Of a stretch of DNA of 64,000 nt, positions 12,708 to 54,494 are shown in pieces (within the stretch, counting starts at the first letter, position 1; each line of letters begins with the position of its first letter). The translations under genes were made by a program, and so were the position numbers. The DNA is from Chloroflexus sp. Y-396-1 (GTDB taxonomy: Bacteria > Chloroflexota > Chloroflexia > Chloroflexales > Chloroflexaceae). Under the pieces are notes generated by a model. That model was not told where the DNA came from and did not search any database. It worked only from the letters and a program-made list of their open reading frames with translations. Location: NCBI RefSeq assembly GCF_000516515.1, contig NZ_KI911784.1, forward strand, positions 1,706,881-1,770,880, written 5' to 3'.

Positions 12708-13784
12708 CTACTGTTCTGCATTGGTCAAAGCGTCGCCGGCATCTTCCGCAAAACTGTAGACCACAATCCCGAAGCGTTCAGCAACCTTCCGCGCCGGAGC
12801 ATCTACCATCGGCGAGATGACTATCAACTGCTCGGCTTTTCGCTCATGACGGCGTTCATACCACCGCGCCTTACGTTCAAACAGATACATATCGGCCTTG
12901 CTCATCGATGACTTAATCTCACAAATCAGCAACAGGCCATTTTTGATAATCACATCAAGCTCGATCTGTTCAGGTCGTCCAAATACTTCGCCGGTCTCAT
13001 CAAACTCGTTGACATTGATCAATTCGAGATTGAAAAAGCCGGTCAGAATACCACGCAAAGCGTCACGGAACGACTGCTCTGAATACAGCCCCCAACGCGC
13101 ACCGAGCGCGCCAATGGTAGAGTCGAACTTTCGGTCAAGCGCCGCATGCCGCCGCATAAGCTCGCGGATTTCACGTTGATTCTCTTCCCAGCGTCGCGAT
13201 TGCTCTGCCCACAGCCGAGTTTGCTCTTCCCAGCGTTGCGATTGCTCTGCCCACAGCCGGGTTTGCTCTTCCCAACGCCGGTCTTGCTCTGCCCAGCGTT
13301 GAGCTTGTTCTTCCCAGCGCCGATCTTGCTCCTCCCAGCGTTGAGCTTGTTCTTCCCAGCGTTGAGTCTGCTCTTCCCAGCGGCGAGTCTGCTCTTCCCA
13401 GCGGCGAGTCTGTTCTTCCCACTTGCGATCAATTTCCGCGTGGCGCTGATCCATCTCGCCCAACCGCCGCAGCATCTCGCGAATTTCACGTTGATTCTCT
13501 TCCCAGCGTTGCGATTGCTCTGCCCAACGCCGATCTTGTTCTGCCCAGCGTTGAGCTTGTTCTGCCCAGCGCTGAGCTTGTTCTGCCCACAGACGTGCTT
13601 GCTCTTCGCGAGATTGTCGCAACTCCTCGAGAATGCGATCAAACCGATTATCAGTTTCCGAGCGACCAGCAAAATATTTTTGCGCAAGTTGCAAGATCAG
13701 ACGCTGCACTTCCGGATCGCGTTCAAGGAGTGCAGGTAGTTCCTGGATAATCAATTCCCTAATTTGGTCGCGTTCGAGTGGCAT
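12708..13784 (-). CDS. heptad-repeat coiled-coil protein with C-terminal PD-(D/E)XK-like domain (DUF3782 type)
   Basis: 358 aa. Residues 1-60 form a short helical head. Residues about 62-96 and 121-199 are near-perfect heptads of the form RWEEQxx or RWAEQxx. The two blocks end in similar segments (WEENQREIREMLRR and WEENQREIRELMRR), indicating internal duplication. The last 140 residues resemble a PD-(D/E)XK nuclease fold, with D277 in IELDVII and E289/K291 in CEIKSS. Such proteins are common in cyanobacteria and Chloroflexi, and no function is firmly known. ATG at 13784 has AAGGAG six bases upstream, and an extended -10 lies 63 bp upstream. Confidence 0.82.
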   Translation of the reverse strand: MPLERDQIRELIIQELPALLERDPEVQRLILQLAQKYFAGRSETDNRFDRILEELRQSREEQARLWAEQAQRWAEQAQRWAEQDRRWAEQSQRWEENQREIREMLRRLGEMDQRHAEIDRKWEEQTRRWEEQTRRWEEQTQRWEEQAQRWEEQDRRWEEQAQRWAEQDRRWEEQTRLWAEQSQRWEEQTRLWAEQSRRWEENQREIRELMRRHAALDRKFDSTIGALGARWGLYSEQSFRDALRGILTGFFNLELINVNEFDETGEVFGRPEQIELDVIIKNGLLLICEIKSSMSKADMYLFERKARWYERRHERKAEQLIVISPMVDAPARKVAERFGIVVYSFAEDAGDALTNAEQ

Positions 13785-20242: not shown

Positions 20243-20461
20243 GACTCTCTCCGCTGCTAGACAAACGAAACAAGAGCGTCGTCGAATGGTGACGACGCCA
20301 AGCCTACATGATAGTATACCACTATTTTTTAGAACAAACGAACGACAAAGGCCGGATTTTAGGTCTTTTCAACGTTTTCACCTTACTCAGCAGAGGTGAG
20401 AGAGAAGATTGAGGTGAAAGAGCGAGTTCTAAATCGGTCATTGATAACGTGCTGATGCAGC

Positions 20462-21505
20462 AAACGATAGGTTTCAACCATAAACGCTGGTACGGGCCGG
20501 AGGCCTGCGCGCCCAGGATGTCCCATTATATGGGCTGGAGGCCTGCGCGCCCAGGAACCCAATGGGCACGTCACACCCCCAGCGATGCGGGCCGGAGGCC
20601 CGTGCGCCTGGGAACCCAATGGGCGCGTCACACACCTAGCGATGCGGGCCGGAGGCCCGCGCACCCAGGATGCCCCATTATACGGGCCGGAGGCCCGCGC
20701 GCCCAGGATGTCCCATTATATGGGCTGGAGGCCTGCGCTCGCAGAAACCCCATGGGCGTCGCACACCCAGCGATGCGGGCCGGAGGCCCGCGCGCCCAGG
20801 AACCCCATGGGCGCGTCGCACACCCAGCGATGCGGGCCGGAGGCCCGCGCGCCCGGGATGTCCCATTAATATGGGCTGGAGGCCTGCGCTCGCAGAAACC
20901 CCATGGGCGTCGCACACCCAGCGATGCGGGCCGAAGGCCCGCGCGCCCAGAAACCCAATGGGCGCGTCACACACCTAGCGATGCGGGCCGGAGGCCCGCG
21001 CACCCAGGATGCCCCATTATACGGGCTGGAGGCCTGCGCGCCCAGGCACCCAATGGGCGCGTCACACACCTAGCGATGCGGGCCGGAGGCCCGCGCGCCC
21101 GGGAACCCCATGGGCGTCACACACCTATCGATGCGGGCAGGAGGCCCGCGCACCCAGGATGCCCCATTATACGGGCCGGAGGCCCGCGCGCCCAGGATGG
21201 CCCATGATACGGGCTGGAGGTCTGCGCGCCCAGAAACCCAATGGGCGCGTCACACCCCCAGCGATGCGGGCTGGAGGCCCGCACACCCAGGATGGCCCAT
21301 GATACGGGCTGGAGGCCTGCGCTCGCAGAAACCCGATGGGCGTCGCACACCTAGCGATGCGGGCCGGAGGCCCGCGCGCCCAGGACGTCCCATTATACGG
21401 GCCGGAGGCCCGCACGCCCAGAAACCCAATGGGCGCGTCGCATACCTAGAGATGCGGCGCGCCCAGGATATCCCATTATATGGGCTGGAGGCCTGCGCTC
21501 GCAGG
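20462..21505 (+). repeat. 1-kb array of about 21 palindromic GC-rich units
   Basis: About 21 copies of a core resembling GCGGGCCGGAGGCCCGCGC, an imperfect palindrome, spaced about 40-55 bp apart. Linkers are of two sorts: one contains CCCAATGGGC with GCGTCACACACCTAGCGATG, the other CCCATTATATGGGC; both are themselves palindromic. Variants (GGCTGGAGGCCTGC) alternate without strict order. Single or few copies of the core occur at about 14105, 15425, 28376, 51972 and in the 54242 array. Long ORFs in all frames here are composition artefacts. Confidence 0.9.
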
Positions 21506-30978: not shown

Positions 30979-31962
30979 TCATCCGGTAAGCAAATGCTCG
31001 GCAAAGATCATACGGCGAGTGCGCGTTTCACAGCGCAAGATTAGGGAGTTCGTTTCTGCCCGGTCACCGGCCAGCCGCACACCACGAAGCAGGATGCTGT
31101 CGGTGATGCCGGTAGCGACGAAAAATATCTGGTTACTGCTGACAATATCGTCACAGGTCAGAATCCGTTTTGTATCCAGACCGGCGCGTGTAATTGCTGT
31201 ACGCTCGGCCTCGCTCTGCGGGGCGAGACGGGCTAACATTGCACCACCAAGTGATTTGACAGCACATGCAGCCAATACGCCTTCGTGCGCTCCACCAATT
31301 CCCATCAATATGTCAACATTTGTACCAGAGATCGCCGCCAGCAACGCACCGTAGATGTCGCCATCATCAGCCAGCATTACCCGTGCTCCGGCAGCTCGAA
31401 TCTCGTCAATCAGATGGGCGTGCCGTGGGCGATCAAGGACGAAAACGACCAGATCACGCACTGAGCGTCGGGTTGCCCGTGCGACTAGGGCCAGTGTCCA
31501 GCCTGCCGGTGCATCGAGACACTCCGGCACTAGATACGGAGCAACCTGTGGACCGACAATGATCTTCTCCATGTAAGCCGCCGGATAAGGCGCCCACAAT
31601 GCACCTCGATTAGTTACAGCGGCAAAAGAGACGGCCCCAGCACGTCCCTGAGCTAACTGACGCCGTCCATCAACCGGATCAACGATTAAGTCCGCAGGTG
31701 GGCCCTTACCAGTGCCAACCCGTGCTCCACCCGACAGAGGCGTAGCAGCCATCGCTCGCACTTCTTCACCCATAACTAGACGACCATCAAGTTCAAGATT
31801 GGCCAGCGCAGCAGCCATTGCGGTAGCGGCTGCCTGATCAGCAGCTTCAATTTCACCGCGCCCCATCAGACGGGCGGCTGCAATAGCGGCTGCTTCAGTG
31901 GCTCGCACCAGATCAAGACCGGTGTTGGGGCCGAGCTTTTGTGCCTGTGGTATCTCCATCAT
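30979..31962 (-). CDS. glpX: class II fructose-1,6-bisphosphatase (GlpX family)
   Basis: About 327 aa from the ATG at 31962 (or the adjacent ATG at 31959), which follows GAAGGGAG; ATGs further upstream overlap sulP. Hydrolyses fructose-1,6-bisphosphate, and often sedoheptulose bisphosphate, in gluconeogenesis or the Calvin cycle. Family blocks: GPNTGLDLVRATEAAAIAAA, a metal-site IVDPVDGR, and MGIGGAHEGVLAACAVKSLG. The metal motif departs from the usual DP(L/I)EGT: it reads DPVDGRRQ, with Glu changed to Asp. It lies 26 bp downstream of a SulP gene on the same strand. Confidence 0.9.
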   Translation of the reverse strand: MMEIPQAQKLGPNTGLDLVRATEAAAIAAARLMGRGEIEAADQAAATAMAAALANLELDGRLVMGEEVRAMAATPLSGGARVGTGKGPPADLIVDPVDGRRQLAQGRAGAVSFAAVTNRGALWAPYPAAYMEKIIVGPQVAPYLVPECLDAPAGWTLALVARATRRSVRDLVVFVLDRPRHAHLIDEIRAAGARVMLADDGDIYGALLAAISGTNVDILMGIGGAHEGVLAACAVKSLGGAMLARLAPQSEAERTAITRAGLDTKRILTCDDIVSSNQIFFVATGITDSILLRGVRLAGDRAETNSLILRCETRTRRMIFAEHLLTG

Positions 31963-32900
31963 AGCTCCCTTCTCCTGCATCGCACCTGTCAAAACTCCTC
32001 AACTGCTTCGAGCAGATTTGCCGCTTCCCACGCCAGCATCCCACCTTCCAGCACCAACGGCGGTGGTGTTCGTCCGGCCAGCAGCGCTGCGGCCCGTAAG
32101 CTCCGCCGACCACTCCGGCACACCAGCACCAGCGGGCCAGTGGGTAGGTGCTCACGGTGGAGGGGCAGTTGGGCAAGGGGAATGTTGCGTGCGCCGGGAA
32201 TGTGCCCGCGCTGGAATTCACGCGGTTCGCGCACATCGATGACCTGTGGCGGTTGCGCTGTGTGCAGTTGTTCCCATAGCGCCCGTGCAGTAATCTGTGC
32301 CGGTGGCTTGCCGTCGAGGAGGGGGAGTGCTACTGGCCCCGGCAACAATTGCTTCGGCAACTCCTGACACTCTCGGAACACCCGCCGGTCACATTCGTAA
32401 ATACAAACTGCCGGGTCAAGCACGCGATGAAACAGAAATTCGATGGCCTTGTCTTCGTCGAGGAAGCGTTCGGCGCCGAGCTGTTCGTAAAAGCCGCTGA
32501 TCTGCATCCGGTGCATCACACTAGCCCGTACCCGCACAAAGTAGAGATCACCACCGCGCACCCGCAGTGTGCGCCGAATGGTTTCAAGCGCCCGTATCCC
32601 ACTCACATCACACTGGTTAACGCTGTGCATCCGCAAGAGCAGATACCGCACACTCCGTTGCCGTTCCAGCAGCCCCAACAACTGTTCTTCCACGTGATTG
32701 ACCGCGCCAAAATAGAGGTCGCCTTGCAGGTCAACCACCAGCAACTGCGGACACATTGGCTTGCCGTGCGCTGCCTCCCAGTGGCGAAACTCGCTATCGG
32801 GTACCACCGCTTCCACACGCGGCATAGCGGTGCGGATCAGGTAATAGCCCAATGAGGTGACCACCCCGATCAAAATCGCAAATTGCAACGGCAGCGTGAG
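31897..32900 (-). repeat. 1.0-kb direct repeat, copy A (sulP 3' half plus glpX start)
   Basis: Nearly identical to 34142-35145 (offset 2245 bp), with only a few scattered differences noticed. It covers the STAS and rhodanese part of the SulP gene, its 3' flank and the first codons of glpX. Similarity drops sharply at about 32900. Confidence 0.9.
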
Positions 32901-34100
32901 AGTCAAGAACAGAGTCATAAACATAATGACAGCTTCACCACGCGACCCGTGCCAGATGCGAACTATCGAACGCTGATCAACCATACTCCAAGCAGTAACG
33001 GCTAATGCTCCTGCTAAAGCAGCGCGTGGTACTTCGGCCAGCAGGCTTGAAAGGACCGTTGTAGCCAGGAAGACTGTAAGCCCAGAGATGATCGCGGTAA
33101 GTGATGTTTTTCCTCCTGCCTGATAAGCTAACGCTGACCGATTAAACGATGCGGAACAAGGCATCCCGGAAAAGAGACCGGCGACTATATTTGCCAATCC
33201 CTGTCCAATAAATTCCTGATTACTGTCGATCCGCTGACCAGTATAACCGGCAATTGCACGGGCAATAGCGGTTGCCTCAACCAGACCGATAATGGCTAGT
33301 GCCAACGCACCATTGGCAAGCTGCCCAATAAGCTCCACATCGAAGACCGGCAGTTGCGAGAGAGGCGGTAATCCTGGCGGAATCACACCCATTACCCGAA
33401 CTCCCTGCGCTTTAAGGTTCAGCAACCAGACAATTGGCGATACAACCACAATGCTCAGTAAGACAGCGGGAACTCGCCGAGTCAGACGAGGGAACAGCAC
33501 GATGAGAATAATGGTTGATCCACCAACAGCCACTGATGGCCAATGAATAGCGTCGAGATGGGTAGCGACTTCGGTGATCGTTTGCAAAATACCGGCGCCG
33601 GGCGGAAGATCAATTCTCAGGAGTGGGCCAATCTGATTTGACAGAATGAGAATCCCTGCTCCAGCCGTAAACCCAACTGCCACTGCGTCAGAGACAAAGT
33701 TCACCAGTATGCCTAATTGTGCAATCCCCATAATAACGCGAATGATCCCGGCCATAACGGCAATTAAGCTGGCGGCAGTCACAAATTCATTACTCCCAAC
33801 GGCAGTAATCGGCGCCAGTACCGATAGGGTCAGAATCGCAGCAGTATTCGTTGGACCGCTGTTGAGATGGCTTGACGATCCCCACAGCCCACCAACAATT
33901 GTAGCGGTTAGTGCACTATATAGGCCAACAACCGGTGGTAGACCACCCAAAATGGCAAATGCTAGCGATTGGGGAAGTAACACTAGGCCAACAGTTATAC
34001 CAGCCAGAAAATCGGTACGAAGACTATCAGGTGTAAAAGTACGCACCAATCGTACCGGTTGGGTAAACAAAACAATGATATAGCGTAGATAGTGCATCAT
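31989..34100 (-). CDS. SulP-family anion transporter with STAS and rhodanese domains (copy 1)
   Basis: 703 aa. The N-terminal 430 residues are the SulP transporter with about 12-14 helices (SLAFAILGGLPPVVGLYSAL; NIVAGLFSGMPCSASFNRSA), followed by a STAS domain (LLVVDLQGDLYFGAVNHVEE; NQCDVSGIRALETI). A rhodanese domain follows, with C661 in VCRSGRRS and VIDVREPREFQRGHIPGARN. Such fusions would couple sulfate or other anion uptake to sulfur handling; the substrate is inferred. The C-terminal half is almost identical to the second copy upstream, while the N-terminal half is only about three-quarters identical. glpX follows after 26 bp. Confidence 0.92.
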   Translation of the reverse strand: MMHYLRYIIVLFTQPVRLVRTFTPDSLRTDFLAGITVGLVLLPQSLAFAILGGLPPVVGLYSALTATIVGGLWGSSSHLNSGPTNTAAILTLSVLAPITAVGSNEFVTAASLIAVMAGIIRVIMGIAQLGILVNFVSDAVAVGFTAGAGILILSNQIGPLLRIDLPPGAGILQTITEVATHLDAIHWPSVAVGGSTIILIVLFPRLTRRVPAVLLSIVVVSPIVWLLNLKAQGVRVMGVIPPGLPPLSQLPVFDVELIGQLANGALALAIIGLVEATAIARAIAGYTGQRIDSNQEFIGQGLANIVAGLFSGMPCSASFNRSALAYQAGGKTSLTAIISGLTVFLATTVLSSLLAEVPRAALAGALAVTAWSMVDQRSIVRIWHGSRGEAVIMFMTLFLTLTLPLQFAILIGVVTSLGYYLIRTAMPRVEAVVPDSEFRHWEAAHGKPMCPQLLVVDLQGDLYFGAVNHVEEQLLGLLERQRSVRYLLLRMHSVNQCDVSGIRALETIRRTLRVRGGDLYFVRVRASVMHRMQISGFYEQLGAERFLDEDKAIEFLFHRVLDPAVCIYECDRRVFRECQELPKQLLPGPVALPLLDGKPPAQITARALWEQLHTAQPPQVIDVREPREFQRGHIPGARNIPLAQLPLHREHLPTGPLVLVCRSGRRSLRAAALLAGRTPPPLVLEGGMLAWEAANLLEAVEEF

Positions 34101-34138
34101 AGGTCATGACAGTAGAAGCAACTATTTCTTGTTGCTGT

Positions 34139-34207
34139 CTCAGTAGCACGCACCAGATCGAGACCGGTGTTGGGGCCGAGCTTTTGTGCCTGTGGTATCT
34201 CCATCAT
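34139..34207 (-). pseudogene. 5' fragment of glpX (23 codons) between the two sulP genes
   Basis: Encodes MMEIPQAQKLGPNTGLDLVR and then ATE, exactly as the true glpX start at 31962, and then diverges into unrelated sequence before the next sulP start. It is the scar of a tandem duplication of a sulP-glpX unit. Not functional. Confidence 0.85.
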
Positions 34208-35145
34208 AGCTCCCTTCTCCTGCATCGCACCCGTCAAAACTCCTCAACTGCTTCGAGCAGATTTGCCGCTTCCCACGCCAGCATCCCACCTTCCAACACC
34301 AACGGCGGTGGTGTTCGTCCGGCCAGCAGCGCTGCGGCCCGTAAGCTCCGCCGACCACTCCGGCACACCAGCACCAGCGGGCCAGTGGGTAGGTGCTCAC
34401 GGTGGAGGGGCAGTTGGGCAAGGGGAATGTTGCGTGCGCCGGGAATGTGCCCGCGCTGGAATTCACGCGGTTCGCGCACATCGATGACCTGTGGCGGTTG
34501 CGCTGTGTGCAGTTGTTCCCATAGCGCCCGTGCAGTAATCTGTGCCGGTGGCTTGCCGTCGAGGAGGGGGAGTGCTACTGGCCCCGGCAACAATTGCTTC
34601 GGCAACTCCTGACACTCTCGGAACACCCGCCGGTCACATTCGTAAATACAAACTGCCGGGTCAAGCACGCGATGAAACAGAAATTCGATGGCCTTGTCTT
34701 CGTCGAGGAAGCGTTCGGCGCCGAGCTGTTCGTAAAAGCCGCTGATCTGCATCCGATGCATCACACTGGCCCGTACCCGCACAAAGTAGAGATCACCGCC
34801 GCGCACCCGCAGCGTGCGCCGAATGGTTTCAAGCGCCCGTATCCCACTCACATCACACTGGTTAACGCTGTGCATCCGCAAGAGCAGATACCGCACACTC
34901 CGTTGCCGTTCCAGCAGCCCCAACAACTGTTCTTCCACGTGATTGACCGCGCCAAAATAGAGGTCGCCTTGCAGGTCAACCACCAGCAACTGCGGACACA
35001 TTGGCTTGCCGTGCGCCGCCTCCCAGTGGCGAAACTCGCTATCGGGTACCACCGCTTCCACACGCGGCATAGCGGTGCGGATCAGGTAATAGCCCAATGA
35101 GGTGACCACCCCGATCAAAATCGCAAATTGCAACGGCAGCGTGAG
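34142..35145 (-). repeat. 1.0-kb direct repeat, copy B
   Basis: Partner of 31897-32900. Small differences include A/G changes near 34296 and 34756. The sharp upper boundary lies inside the SulP coding sequence just upstream of the STAS part. Confidence 0.9.
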
Positions 35146-36342
35146 CGTTAGCGCCAGTGTCGCCACCATAATGGCTGTCTCACCACGTGAACTGCGCCAG
35201 ACCCGCGCCATTGCTTTGTGATCAACCATCCCAAGTGCGGCAACCATCAAAGTTCCCGCTAATACAGGACGTGGAATGATCGTCAGGATCTCGTTTAAAA
35301 GACTGGTTCCAATCAAAACGGTGATCCCTGAAATAACCCCAGTGAGTGCTGTCTTGCCACCTGCCTGATACGCCAGGGCCGAGCGGTTGAATGAGCCAGA
35401 ACACGGCATGCCGGAAAAGATTCCAGCAGCAATGTTCGATAATCCCTGCCCAACAAATTCCTGATTGCTGTCAATTCGTTGACCGGTGTAGCCAGCAATT
35501 GCACGTGCGATAGCAATGGCTTCAACCAGACCAATAATGGCCAACGCGAGTGCACCGTTTGCCAACTGTCCAATCAATTGGATATCGACGGGAAGCTGTG
35601 CTAAAGGTGGAAAACCTGCCGGCACCTCCCCCATTAAGCGCACACCCTGCTGTTCCAGGTCGAAAACCCAGACAATGAAAGTCATAATGACAATACTCAA
35701 GAGTGAGGCCGGCAATGTGCGGGTAAAGTTGGGAATCGTATAGATAATAACAATGGTCAATCCGCCAATAATAAGCGATGGCCAGTGTACTTGATCGAAT
35801 TTCGCCAGCGTTTCGACAACAATTGTAGGAATATTTGCACCTAGAGGAATGCTAATGCGAGTAATAGGGCCAATCTGATTGAATAAAATTAAGAGTCCCG
35901 AACCAGCAGTAAATCCGATAGCAACCGCATCTGAGATAAAGGTCACCAGCATACCTAATCGGGCAACACCCATAATGAGCCGGATGATTCCAGCCATTAC
36001 AGCAACTAAACTGGCAGCGGTAACGAATTCGGGACTGCCGACCGGTGCAATCGGCAGTAGTACTGATAGAGTTAAAATAGCGCCAGTTGTAGTAGGTCCA
36101 CTGTTCAGAAGGCTAGAGGAACCCCACAATGCCCCGACAATTGTGGCGACCATTGCGCTGTACAGACCAACCACTGGCGGTAGACCCCCGAGAATGGCAA
36201 ATGCCAGTGATTGGGGTAATAAAACTAGGCCGACCGTGATTCCGGCGAAAAAGTCAGATCGCAGTGCGTGCAGTGGATAAGTTCGGAATAATCGGACGGG
36301 CTGAGCAAACAGGGTTAGCGCCGAACGCATGTAATCGTACAT
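34234..36342 (-). CDS. SulP-family anion transporter with STAS and rhodanese domains (copy 2)
   Basis: 702 aa, same layout as copy 1: SulP membrane domain, STAS, linker DPAVCIYECDRRVFRECQEL, and rhodanese with C660. From LTLPLQFAILIGVVTSLGYY to the end the protein is identical or nearly so to copy 1. The membrane domain differs at about one residue in four (for example PITRISIPLG versus PLLRIDLPPG), so the two may differ in anion preference while sharing an identical regulatory tail. Downstream lies the 23-codon glpX remnant. Confidence 0.92.
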   Translation of the reverse strand: MYDYMRSALTLFAQPVRLFRTYPLHALRSDFFAGITVGLVLLPQSLAFAILGGLPPVVGLYSAMVATIVGALWGSSSLLNSGPTTTGAILTLSVLLPIAPVGSPEFVTAASLVAVMAGIIRLIMGVARLGMLVTFISDAVAIGFTAGSGLLILFNQIGPITRISIPLGANIPTIVVETLAKFDQVHWPSLIIGGLTIVIIYTIPNFTRTLPASLLSIVIMTFIVWVFDLEQQGVRLMGEVPAGFPPLAQLPVDIQLIGQLANGALALAIIGLVEAIAIARAIAGYTGQRIDSNQEFVGQGLSNIAAGIFSGMPCSGSFNRSALAYQAGGKTALTGVISGITVLIGTSLLNEILTIIPRPVLAGTLMVAALGMVDHKAMARVWRSSRGETAIMVATLALTLTLPLQFAILIGVVTSLGYYLIRTAMPRVEAVVPDSEFRHWEAAHGKPMCPQLLVVDLQGDLYFGAVNHVEEQLLGLLERQRSVRYLLLRMHSVNQCDVSGIRALETIRRTLRVRGGDLYFVRVRASVMHRMQISGFYEQLGAERFLDEDKAIEFLFHRVLDPAVCIYECDRRVFRECQELPKQLLPGPVALPLLDGKPPAQITARALWEQLHTAQPPQVIDVREPREFQRGHIPGARNIPLAQLPLHREHLPTGPLVLVCRSGRRSLRAAALLAGRTPPPLVLEGGMLAWEAANLLEAVEEF

Positions 36343-36741
36343 AGTGATGTATTCGAGTGTCTAGCGAGAATCACCATCATTGTGATCAATATCTCTTGCT
36401 ACCTGTGCCTGAAGGATGGTATAAATGGAAAGAAGCAGTTACTGTTTACTCCAGATGTCTTCTATCATACCGCGATTTCAGATTAGTAAAGGAGTGATGA
36501 GTACACCTGAAAGTAGCTTTGTAATTGCAGATACCGTATTCCTGTCAGATAGTCTGTGGTGTAGTAAAGGTGGTGCAGCAGTTAATCAGTATGCTGAATC
36601 TCGATATTCAGTATAACGTTTCTCGAATGGATACATTCATTCCCAATGTGCAACAAGAGGTTTGTACAAACGATAGGATCAGTACCGTTGCTGGCAGTAA
36701 GAACCACAACCAGGGAAAGGATTTCACGAATAAATAGTGTC
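36343..36741 (+). other. intergenic region, A/T-richer than surroundings
   Basis: Separates sulP copy 2 and the membrane glycosyltransferase, which diverge. A small frame at 36497-36616 has AAGGAG but only two bases before its ATG, so it is not called. No clear promoter or repeat seen. Confidence 0.5.
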
Positions 36742-38169
36742 ATGATCGACCGCCATTTATGGGCGTTGAGTACTATTATCGGTTTGATCCTCTTCTGGTT
36801 CTTACGGCAGCGCGGTTACGATGACCCGTACATTACGTATCGTTACGCGATCAACCTGGCAAGTGGCAACGGCTTTGTCTACAATCCTGGCGTTGCGACC
36901 CTCAGCACAACAGCCCCCCTGTTCGGCCTGATCCTTACCCCAGTGGCCTTATTCGGCTGGCCGATTCCACTGGTAGCTAACCTGATTGGCTGTCTGAGTC
37001 ACGCCGCTGGGGCACTGGCACTGTGGCGGTTGGGTCAAGAATGGGATGACGAGCTGACTGCTGGAGCAGCAGCATTGCTATATCTGCTCTTTCCTTTACC
37101 ATTGACAACGCTCGGTAGTGAGACTTTGCCAGCTATGGCGTTGACGCTATGGATTTTTGTGTGGGGAGCACGTGGTCAGCAGTGGCTTACCGGCACGTTT
37201 GCCGGATTGCTTGTCTGGTTGCGGCCCGATGGGATTCTTGTCGGGCCGTTAGTGCTCCTGTTATTGACGATAACCGGCAAGAGCTGGCGTGATTGGCGGC
37301 GCTGGCCGTGGTCGGCAGGATTGATCTGGAGCGGCATCATCATGGTTGGCGTAGGATTAGCCTGGCTTGTATACGATGCACCATTGCCGGTAACGCTCTA
37401 TGCCAAGCAACAACAGGCGCTCATTCCGGGTTTCTACGATTTTGGCGATCGACTGTGGGTGACGTTGCGTAATCATCTTGCCCAGCCTTTTTACCAGATG
37501 GTCTTCCTGCTGGCCGGTCTCGGCTTGATAGCGAGTGTTCGCTCTTGGCGCTGGCTATTTTTGATCGGATGGGCGACGATCTATGGTCTGGCCTATACGC
37601 TCTTGCACGTAGCCGGCTATTTCTGGTATGTGGCCCCACTCGTTGTCGGTCTGGCGCCTGCATTCGGGCTTGGGGTACGTCTCATCGGCAGATGGTTACA
37701 GCGGCTTGGTGGGCCGAGGTTACGTAACATTGGTATTGTGCTGATATTATGCGGCACTACCCTCTGGTTGAGCAGCGCCGTTTATCGTATCGGTCAACAA
37801 ATCGATCCCCGCCTGACCGTCTATCGCGAAGCAGGAGAATGGCTGGCAACCAATACGTCACCAAACGCCAGCGTCGCCACGCTAGAGATCGGCATTATCG
37901 GCTATTACGCTCAGCGTCCGATGATCGATTTTGCCGGTCTTCTACAGACGGATATTGCCGCCCAATTGGGATCAGGAGGGTTTGGCGCTTCGGCGCAGTA
38001 TGCGATTGAGCATTATCGTCCAGCATACCTGGTTTTGCAGGAACAGGCCCTCTCCCTGCTGAGCGGACGACCTGATCTTACCGCACGTTGTCCGATTGTT
38101 GCCGAGATTCCCGATCCACGATATGCGGCGCCGTTAACAATCCACGCCTGTCGTTGGGAAAGCCCTTAG
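36742..38169 (+). CDS. multi-spanning GT-C-like membrane protein (putative mannosyl/arabinosyltransferase-like)
   Basis: 475 aa from the ATG at 36742; upstream in-frame codons from 36646 lack membrane character. An acidic first loop (GYDDPYITYRYAINLASGNG, with the DD typical of GT39/GT83-like GT-C enzymes) is followed by about ten hydrophobic segments. A soluble C-terminal tail follows (EAGEWLATNTSPNASVATLE; GIIGYYAQRPMIDFAGL). These features fit polyprenyl-phosphate-sugar-dependent transferases of the envelope. Acceptor and sugar are unknown. The secreted glycosidase-like gene follows after 60 bp and may be co-expressed. Confidence 0.75.
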   Translation: MIDRHLWALSTIIGLILFWFLRQRGYDDPYITYRYAINLASGNGFVYNPGVATLSTTAPLFGLILTPVALFGWPIPLVANLIGCLSHAAGALALWRLGQEWDDELTAGAAALLYLLFPLPLTTLGSETLPAMALTLWIFVWGARGQQWLTGTFAGLLVWLRPDGILVGPLVLLLLTITGKSWRDWRRWPWSAGLIWSGIIMVGVGLAWLVYDAPLPVTLYAKQQQALIPGFYDFGDRLWVTLRNHLAQPFYQMVFLLAGLGLIASVRSWRWLFLIGWATIYGLAYTLLHVAGYFWYVAPLVVGLAPAFGLGVRLIGRWLQRLGGPRLRNIGIVLILCGTTLWLSSAVYRIGQQIDPRLTVYREAGEWLATNTSPNASVATLEIGIIGYYAQRPMIDFAGLLQTDIAAQLGSGGFGASAQYAIEHYRPAYLVLQEQALSLLSGRPDLTARCPIVAEIPDPRYAAPLTIHACRWESP

Positions 38170-54241: not shown

Positions 54242-54494
54242 GTGCGCGGGCCTCTGGCCCGCATCGTGCGGTGTGTAGACAGTGGCTGCGTCAGATGCTG
54301 ACCGGCATCCGCGTGCGCGGGCCTCTGGCCCGCATCGCGCGGTGTGTAGACAGTAGCTGCGTCAGATGCTGACCGGCATCCGCGTGCGCGGGCCTCTGGC
54401 CCGCATCGTGCGGTGTGTAGACAGTAGCTGCGTCAGATGCTGACCGGCATCCGCGTGCGCGGGCCTCTGGCCCGCATCGCGCGGTGTGTAGACA
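54242..54494 (+). repeat. 71-bp tandem repeat, about 3.6 copies
   Basis: Units start at 54242, 54313, 54384 and 54455, each 71 bp apart; only one or two bases vary between copies (for example CATCGTGCGG/CATCGCGCGG). Each unit opens with the palindrome GCGGGCCTCTGGCCCGC and ends CTGACCGGCATCCGC. The palindrome is the same family as at 15422 and resembles the core of the 20462 array. Confidence 0.95.

Follow-up and report, generated by a model that had tools for sequence, protein, structure and literature searches.

Evidence for recurrent gene conversion between the tails of two tandem SulP-STAS-rhodanese genes in Chloroflexus, with a step in synonymous GC content at the converted tract

Repeated exchange between bacterial paralogues is known for the class-I release factors RF1 and RF2 (PMC4530459), and GC-biased gene conversion has been proposed for bacteria by Lassalle et al. 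(2015; PMC4450053), whose abstract relates the guanine-plus-cytosine (GC) content of genes to intragenic recombination across bacterial clades. Here we describe a locus of Chloroflexus sp. Y-396-1 (GCF_000516515.1, contig NZ_KI911784.1, positions 1,706,881 to 1,770,880; this whole stretch of 64,000 nt is called the window) at which two neighbouring genes, alpha and beta, each encode a SulP membrane domain, a STAS domain and a rhodanese domain, and share a near-identical tail (codon 398 onward) behind diverged heads. RF1/RF2 resemble this pair in the repeated exchange between bacterial paralogues; unlike them, the SulP genes are tandem transporters, conversion covers their cytoplasmic tail together with the two final membrane helices, and the tract carries a GC step. 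With the work of Lassalle et al. the locus shares a link between recombination and higher GC, said there to be independent of codon-usage selection; in contrast to that work, the exchange is between copies within one genome and the unconverted half of the gene serves as a control. The terms paralog, ectopic and duplicat are absent from the text of PMC4450053, and among the titles listed by literature searches on GC bias with bacterial paralogues or duplicates none deals with GC-biased conversion between bacterial paralogues; in PMC13061034 (paralogue conversion in a pathogen) and PMC8022953 (rRNA operons of E. coli), 'biased gene conversion' occurs only in the reference lists. At the protein level, PDB entry 7lhv (AtSULTR4;1) aligns over residues 16-546 (membrane and STAS domains), and 6ki1 and 5da0 over the membrane domain; unlike these SLC26/SulP structures, the pair adds a conserved Cys-containing linker and a C-terminal rhodanese domain.

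Conversion between bacterial paralogues is known and a GC bias has been proposed; the SulP case joins both, has an internal control and is unusually clean. A GC preference of bacterial gene conversion is debated, as the genes that recombine are also shaped by selection and mutation. A half-converted gene in several species, together with a single-copy relative, helps to separate these forces, making the pair a natural test of GC preference in bacterial DNA copying. It also shows how a transporter pair keeps one regulatory module while its transport domains diverge, and is a case where a GC-rich domain could be mistaken for foreign DNA.

The original prediction held that the two genes share a near-identical 3' half with an abrupt upper boundary, as left by recent gene conversion. 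The predicted offset of 2245 bp is exact (20 neighbouring offsets that were tried match only 24-30%), and the boundary at 32900/35145 is indeed abrupt, with 7 mismatches in 985 nt (31916-32900) followed by 150 in the next 445 nt. The protein identity of the heads, given as about 75%, was too high, being 68% over ~390 codons; the near-identical 3' half stood, but the block is not confined to the genes, as it passes the stop codons into glpX and continues at lower identity to 31889/34134. The glpX fragment, the changed gene order and the GC step described below lie outside that prediction. Alpha and beta heads of the window agree at 64.9% of DNA positions, 68.2% of residues and 37.2% of third positions; for the tails the figures are 99.0, 100 and 97.7%. 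In beta, the tract contains the last two predicted membrane helices, STAS, the linker, rhodanese, the stop codon, the ribosome-binding site of glpX and about 15 glpX codons. With G000 denoting the window genome, G001 to G007 the other Chloroflexus genomes, and the suffixes a and b the alpha and beta copies, the upper edge of the tract was placed at codon 399 of the window pair, 387 of the G001 pair and 394 (or 381) of the G007 pair. These positions are near or inside helix 386-401 of a predicted structure (mean predicted local distance difference test score 79.7), which puts the last two membrane helices at the start of the tail. The lower edge lies just past the stop codon in G001, and within a truncated glpX copy (the glpX scar) in the window.

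Alpha and beta tails are also nearly identical within G001 (99.9%), G007 (99.6% over 75 codons) and G004 (100% over 23 codons), and 88.9 and 89.1% identical in the older pairs of G003 and G005; within-genome identity of the heads is only 65-70%, and the window and G001 tails are 73% alike. At third positions the two G001 tails agree at 99.7%, whereas the window tails agree with the full-length tails of other species at only about 43-52%. The head tree separates alpha from beta with support of 100/100. Tails instead pair by genome, with support of at least 100/99, in the window, G001 and G007 (100/100 for the first two); the tail tree does not resolve G003 and G005, and the approximately unbiased (AU) test rejects a clade uniting all alpha tails (p 2e-7). 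A protein tree with outgroups concurs, and all Chloroflexus tails stay together in it. Concerted evolution, in which paralogues are closer than orthologues over part of the gene only, was thus found in the window, G001 and G007; the tails of G003 and G005 depart from it, as orthologues there are as close or closer. Because each of the three former genomes has its own supported tail pair, there was more than one independent homogenisation. Both heads have orthologues, these orthologues are not equally similar along their full length, and heads group by paralogue and tails by genome, with the all-alpha tail clade rejected. Recurrent gene conversion between the alpha and beta tails is supported.

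The tract also differs in synonymous composition. The GC content at four-fold sites (GC4) was compared between tail and head of one gene: it is 0.763 against 0.448 in alpha and 0.741 against 0.468 in beta of the window, 0.878/0.547 and 0.873/0.568 in G001, 0.908/0.665 in G004a (p <1e-7 for these three genomes), 0.848/0.693 in G005a and 0.844/0.689 in G007a (p <0.001 for both). Across all 75 orthologous control loci, the tail-head difference has a mean of 0.004, a standard deviation of 0.047 and a maximum of 0.132; the rows for L059 and L096 paired head and tail of different copies, which leaves this maximum unaffected, and the per-copy steps are 0.047 and -0.002 for L059 and -0.035 for the one whole copy of L096. 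When the change point was left free, it fell at codon 389 in alpha and 400 in beta of the window, where the conversion edge is at 399, at 395 and 346 in G001, and at 362 in G004a, 383 in G005a and 386 in G007a; it is weak in G002b (469), G003a (247) and G003b (375). Ordinary genes came from samples of 400 kb each of G000 and G001, to which the rest of the window was added for G000. The free steps of the window pair are 0.315 and 0.272, those of the G001 pair 0.337 and 0.317; among sampled genes of at least 550 codons the largest is 0.212 in G000 (38 genes) and 0.292 in G001 (36 genes). Codon-family make-up was rejected as the source of the step in G000 and G001, as correction for it leaves the step at the fixed cut nearly unchanged (0.300 and 0.263 in G000, 0.320 and 0.291 in G001) over a background with standard deviations of 0.057 and 0.056 and maxima of 0.152 and 0.111 in 38 and 36 genes. 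Copy number alone was rejected as well, since the tandem, unconverted pairs at L055 and L059 show steps of -0.01 to 0.05. Raised synonymous GC is confined to the recombining tract, and is weak or absent in G003a, G003b and G005b. That the orthologues lack the step and that it is small in single-copy G002 is what GC-biased conversion would predict.

Several results weigh against a GC-biased conversion as the source of this step. The step is only 0.04 in G007b (0.76/0.718, 50 tail sites), 0.03 in G003a (0.829/0.800, p 0.52), 0.09 in G003b (0.879/0.789, p 0.02) and 0.05 in G005b (0.846/0.797, p 0.24), although the weak steps of G003 and G005b are qualified by heads that are already GC-rich and by tails now only 89% identical through drift. 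In single-copy G002 the tail exceeds the head slightly, but not significantly (0.685/0.623, p 0.21). Some ordinary genes have free change-point steps of 0.2-0.29; one G000 gene of at least 450 codons reaches 0.289, above the window beta, and by likelihood ratio one long G001 gene (30.6) tops the G001 pair (29.9 and 26.5) and one G000 gene (17.3) tops the window beta (16.0) but not alpha (21.1). Nor is the GC4 level of the G000 tail extreme, as 14 of 207 sampled segments reach it (2 of 193 for the G001 tail), and the step comes partly from a low head, heads lying below and tails above the genome mean. Substitutions from weak to strong (W>S) and from strong to weak (S>W) base pairs, counted at sites where the reference sequences agree, are 12:13 in the G001a tail and 8:21 in the G000a tail, against 2:30 in the partnerless G002b (p 0.0004 and 0.037), a contrast in favour of the bias; but they are 32:68, 18:42 and 6:16 in the heads of G001, G000 and G002, so that within a genome tail and head do not differ significantly in G001 (p 0.16) or G000 (p 1.0), and the G002 ratio is lower in the tail than in the head (p 0.05). 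Moreover, as the Chloroflexus tails are related, few independent lineages stand behind the GC result.

These points bear on the alternative that the tails owe their high GC to something else, be it the codon preferences of soluble domains, expression level or a GC-rich donor, which we consider unlikely but deserving of weight. Heads below and tails above the genome mean would allow part of the step to be a membrane-domain effect, and substitution counts fail to separate tail from head within a genome. However, the same-domain orthologues show almost no average step, the step survives codon-family correction, and the tails remain within Chloroflexus in the tree, which accordingly gives no support to a GC-rich donor from beyond the genus. 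A head patch in G003, G005 and G007 is GC-rich as well. In this patch (codons 281-332, chosen after seeing it), alpha and beta are near-identical in G005 and G007 and partly so in G003, and its GC4 exceeds that of the rest of the head in all six sequences of these genomes, by 0.08-0.23 (28-29 sites each). Elsewhere the difference is -0.09 to 0.04 (G000, G001, G006), 0.06 (G002b) and 0.11 (G004a), and in the 75 controls it has a mean of -0.008, a standard deviation of 0.081 and a maximum of 0.205. Within-genome identity over codons 299-332 (0.94 in G005, 0.95 in G007) is no higher than that between their orthologues (0.93 and 0.96), so any exchange there is old.

The window also differs from its relatives in gene order. 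At least one copy is present in all eight Chloroflexus genomes examined, the window's included. The order is alpha-glpX'-beta-glpX in the window and beta-alpha-glpX in G001 and G003, each on one contig (blast with the heads); G005 and G007 fit the latter order across two contigs, the beta head ending one and the tail end, alpha and glpX lying on the other. G004 has the tail end followed by alpha and glpX, G006 only a beta head at a contig end, and G002 beta-glpX alone, as a single copy; in the spacer upstream of this beta, blastn found no match to the spacer of the window. Upstream of the pair, the sequence with the divergent neighbour (36646-38169) has matches in relatives, which shows the locus to be syntenic. 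All 22 outgroup loci have one copy in the DNA examined, with glpX downstream in 18; glpX was not seen at L029 and L030 (none in the 5 kb examined) or at L037 and L045 (little DNA there). An order-wide search (E 1e-150) matched 42 of 82 genomes; G000, G001 and G003 alone have two matches on the same contig, and G028, outside the genus, has two on different contigs. The distant tandem pairs at L055 and L059 have tails 61 and 65% alike, and L096 holds one whole copy and a second head. As separate observations, G003 (C. islandicus) has a tandem array between beta and alpha (L107:7219-7740) whose unit includes sequence around the alpha start codon, and the beta fragment of G007, a metagenome genome, has an in-frame TGA at codon 371 (L110), where other beta sequences have W; this may be a sequencing error or decay.

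Behind alpha, the window carries a copy of the glpX ribosome-binding site and start with about 24 codons. As the identical block reaches into this truncated glpX and the gene order is swapped, the locus has been rearranged, and the scar suggests that alpha formerly preceded glpX in the window lineage too. One might suppose that the window tails are alike from a single recent rearrangement (tandem duplication and a crossover deletion) with no separate conversion. Since the identical block includes the glpX start, a duplication breaking inside glpX did occur, the order is unlike that of the relatives, and, as a further point against a separate conversion, the rearrangement itself could be the last homogenising event in the window. 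However, the outer 27 nt of the scar (34134-34160) have 5 mismatches, 4 of them at glpX third positions as counted from the sequences, against 7 in the 985-nt tract (Fisher p 6e-6), so the scar-making duplication probably predates the last homogenisation; moreover, the G001 tails are near-identical in the gene order of the relatives and without a scar. We therefore regard this alternative as improbable. Purifying selection on the STAS-rhodanese tail, which the original prediction had entertained, is very improbable, for although the two proteins do not differ at all from codon 398 onward, identity at third positions within a genome is almost as high as that of the protein, while about half of these positions differ between the window and other species, so that the sameness comes from copying and not from constraint, and the identical block includes the truncated glpX. 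An assembly artefact in which one locus was counted twice is scarcely credible, for although the contigs of G004, G005, G006 and G007 end in or at the edge of the tail, a repeat that troubles assemblers, the window heads are only 65% alike, 7 differences separate the tails, the genome is assembled as one contig, and both full copies also lie on one contig in two other genomes.

Recurrent conversion of the tails thus remains the preferred reading, and we consider a history of duplication, recurrent tail conversion, GC bias and rearrangement in the window lineage, taken as a whole, to be likely. A single ancestral SulP-STAS-rhodanese gene upstream of glpX would have been duplicated on the Chloroflexus stem, with beta retaining the ancestral head and the alpha head changing, including N85T. 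Ectopic conversion between the neighbouring genes, arising anew in several species, would keep the tail alike; it would rarely enter the head, where homology is low and mixed heads were probably selected against. In the window lineage, beta-alpha-glpX may have become alpha-glpX'-beta-glpX, probably by tandem duplication and loss, leaving the truncated glpX in the converted block. Conversion, whose direction we infer, would have been GC-biased, probably through MutS/MutL mismatch repair, with GC-rich variants spreading through the tract; matches to mutS1 and mutL are present in all eight genomes, so such a repair-based bias is possible.

More generally, we regard it as evenly balanced whether exchange between intrachromosomal repeats in Chloroflexus is GC-biased enough to reset the synonymous composition, and perhaps some amino acids, of any repeat. 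The SulP pair would then be a built-in experiment, with a converted and an unconverted half in one gene, several converting lineages, and G002 as a lineage where conversion ended when the partner was lost and the tail is returning towards AT (the 2:30 ratio above). In an exploratory comparison, segments with a partner of at least 85% identity in the sampled DNA had a GC4 of 0.796 (n 1432) against 0.563 (n 59954) for unpartnered segments in G000. In G001 the two values were 0.747 (n 1365) and 0.645 (n 56740). This comparison holds 17 reading frames, several of them possibly false; 12 were scanned with Pfam, of which 8 had no match and 4 did (L143, HEAT; L146, TPR/CHAT; L138, Fe-S; L166, double periplasmic-binding domain). 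GC4 is higher in the repeated than in the unique part in all four matching frames, and the trend is opposite in one frame outside the Pfam scan, L160_16498 (8 unique sites). L143 matches only two short stretches in the rest of its genome and L146 matches nothing there, so their repeats are internal. In the G000 sample, genes with internal repeats (HEAT, TPR) supply the six segments of highest GC4, a point that would fit such a bias. The most GC4-rich segments sampled include a HEAT-repeat gene (L143:2306-6244), a CHAT/NACHT-TPR gene (L146:13536-17975) and a double periplasmic-binding-protein gene (L166:2096-4264). They also include the C-terminal end of a pullulanase-like gene (L163:8510-9290); this segment, picked because of its GC4, is matched at 11 other, diverged sites of its genome (64-80% identity).

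In the heads, 21 positions are fixed differently between six alpha and seven beta sequences, and none in the tail. Position 85 is N in beta and all 75 control orthologues and T in alpha, and position 148 is A in beta and 74 of the 75 controls and S in alpha; the beta head looks ancestral. In the predicted structure, residue 85 opens a short helix (85-95) after strand residues 81-82, with a counterpart in the second repeat (strand 315-316, helix 318-326), and in SLC26 structures the anion site is formed by the N-ends of the two short helices. Because N85T lies at the predicted anion site, alpha probably differs from beta in substrate or affinity; the linkage to glpX is no proof of substrate. 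Both copies are members of the SulP/SLC26 family by domain content, above the curated Pfam cut-offs (PF00916 295-297 bits, PF01740 57 bits), and anion transport is predicted. PF00581 scores 61 bits, and C660 of the active-site loop of rhodanese is invariant in 28 aligned sequences. None of the titles listed by literature searches on SulP-STAS-rhodanese fusions and C. aurantiacus transporters is on these genes. The coordinates of the features are given in Table 1.

Table 1. Features of the SulP locus and its neighbours, in window positions
Feature	Position	Strand	Basis or remark
Intact glpX (class II fructose-1,6-bisphosphatase), directly 3' of beta	30979-31959	minus	Pfam PF03320; neighbours the SulP gene in relatives and most outgroup loci
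Homogenised tract in beta	31916-32900	minus	7 mismatches in 985 nt against alpha
Beta (gene B), domains as in alpha, 703 aa; adjoins glpX	31989-34100	minus	Open reading frame, Pfam; head groups with beta heads of relatives
Diverged beta head (membrane domain)	32901-34100	minus	65% nt and 68% aa identity to alpha head
35-codon reading frame created by the scar; its TGA overlaps the beta ATG	34097-34204	minus	Translation, sequence
Truncated glpX 5' end (scar) between alpha and beta, ~24-25 codons	34134-34204	minus	92% identity
Homogenised tract in alpha	34161-35145	minus	Same block at +2245
Alpha (gene A): SulP head, STAS, rhodanese, 702 aa; first transcribed	34234-36342	minus	Open reading frame, Pfam PF00916/PF01740/PF00581; head groups with alpha heads of relatives
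Alpha rhodanese domain, residues 604-692, active-site loop CRSGRRS	34267-34533	minus	Pfam; sequence
Alpha STAS domain, residues 451-540	34723-34992	minus	Pfam
Diverged alpha head (membrane domain)	35146-36342	minus	T85 in 6/6 alpha sequences, N in beta and orthologues
Conserved divergent neighbour, 507 aa, synteny marker against relatives	36646-38169	plus	Open reading frame; flank matches

Because the stop codon of the scar frame overlaps the beta start, coupled translation of beta to this frame is possible. The end of beta is ~30 nt from glpX, and scans for sigma-70 promoters and terminators were at chance level (4 against 3.5 expected and 1 against 5.5 expected). Most of 26 aligned sequences carry the motif DPA(V/I)CIYEC(D/E)xRxFxEC in the linker between STAS and rhodanese (alpha residues 561-577); 25 of them have its three Cys, L051 being without the second, C565 and C577 are invariant in 28, and the motif is a possible metal or persulfide site. 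A third SulP-like locus in the genome (L003, G000:C1:4116934-4119021) is 32% identical and has one TAA within the match, and a separate rhodanese-like match lies ~700 nt before it. Further repeats in the window lie at 13107-13605 (an array with 21-nt spacing), 20435-21483 (a mixed array with spacings of 38-301 nt) and 54242-54494 (three copies 71 nt apart, with 97-99% identity).

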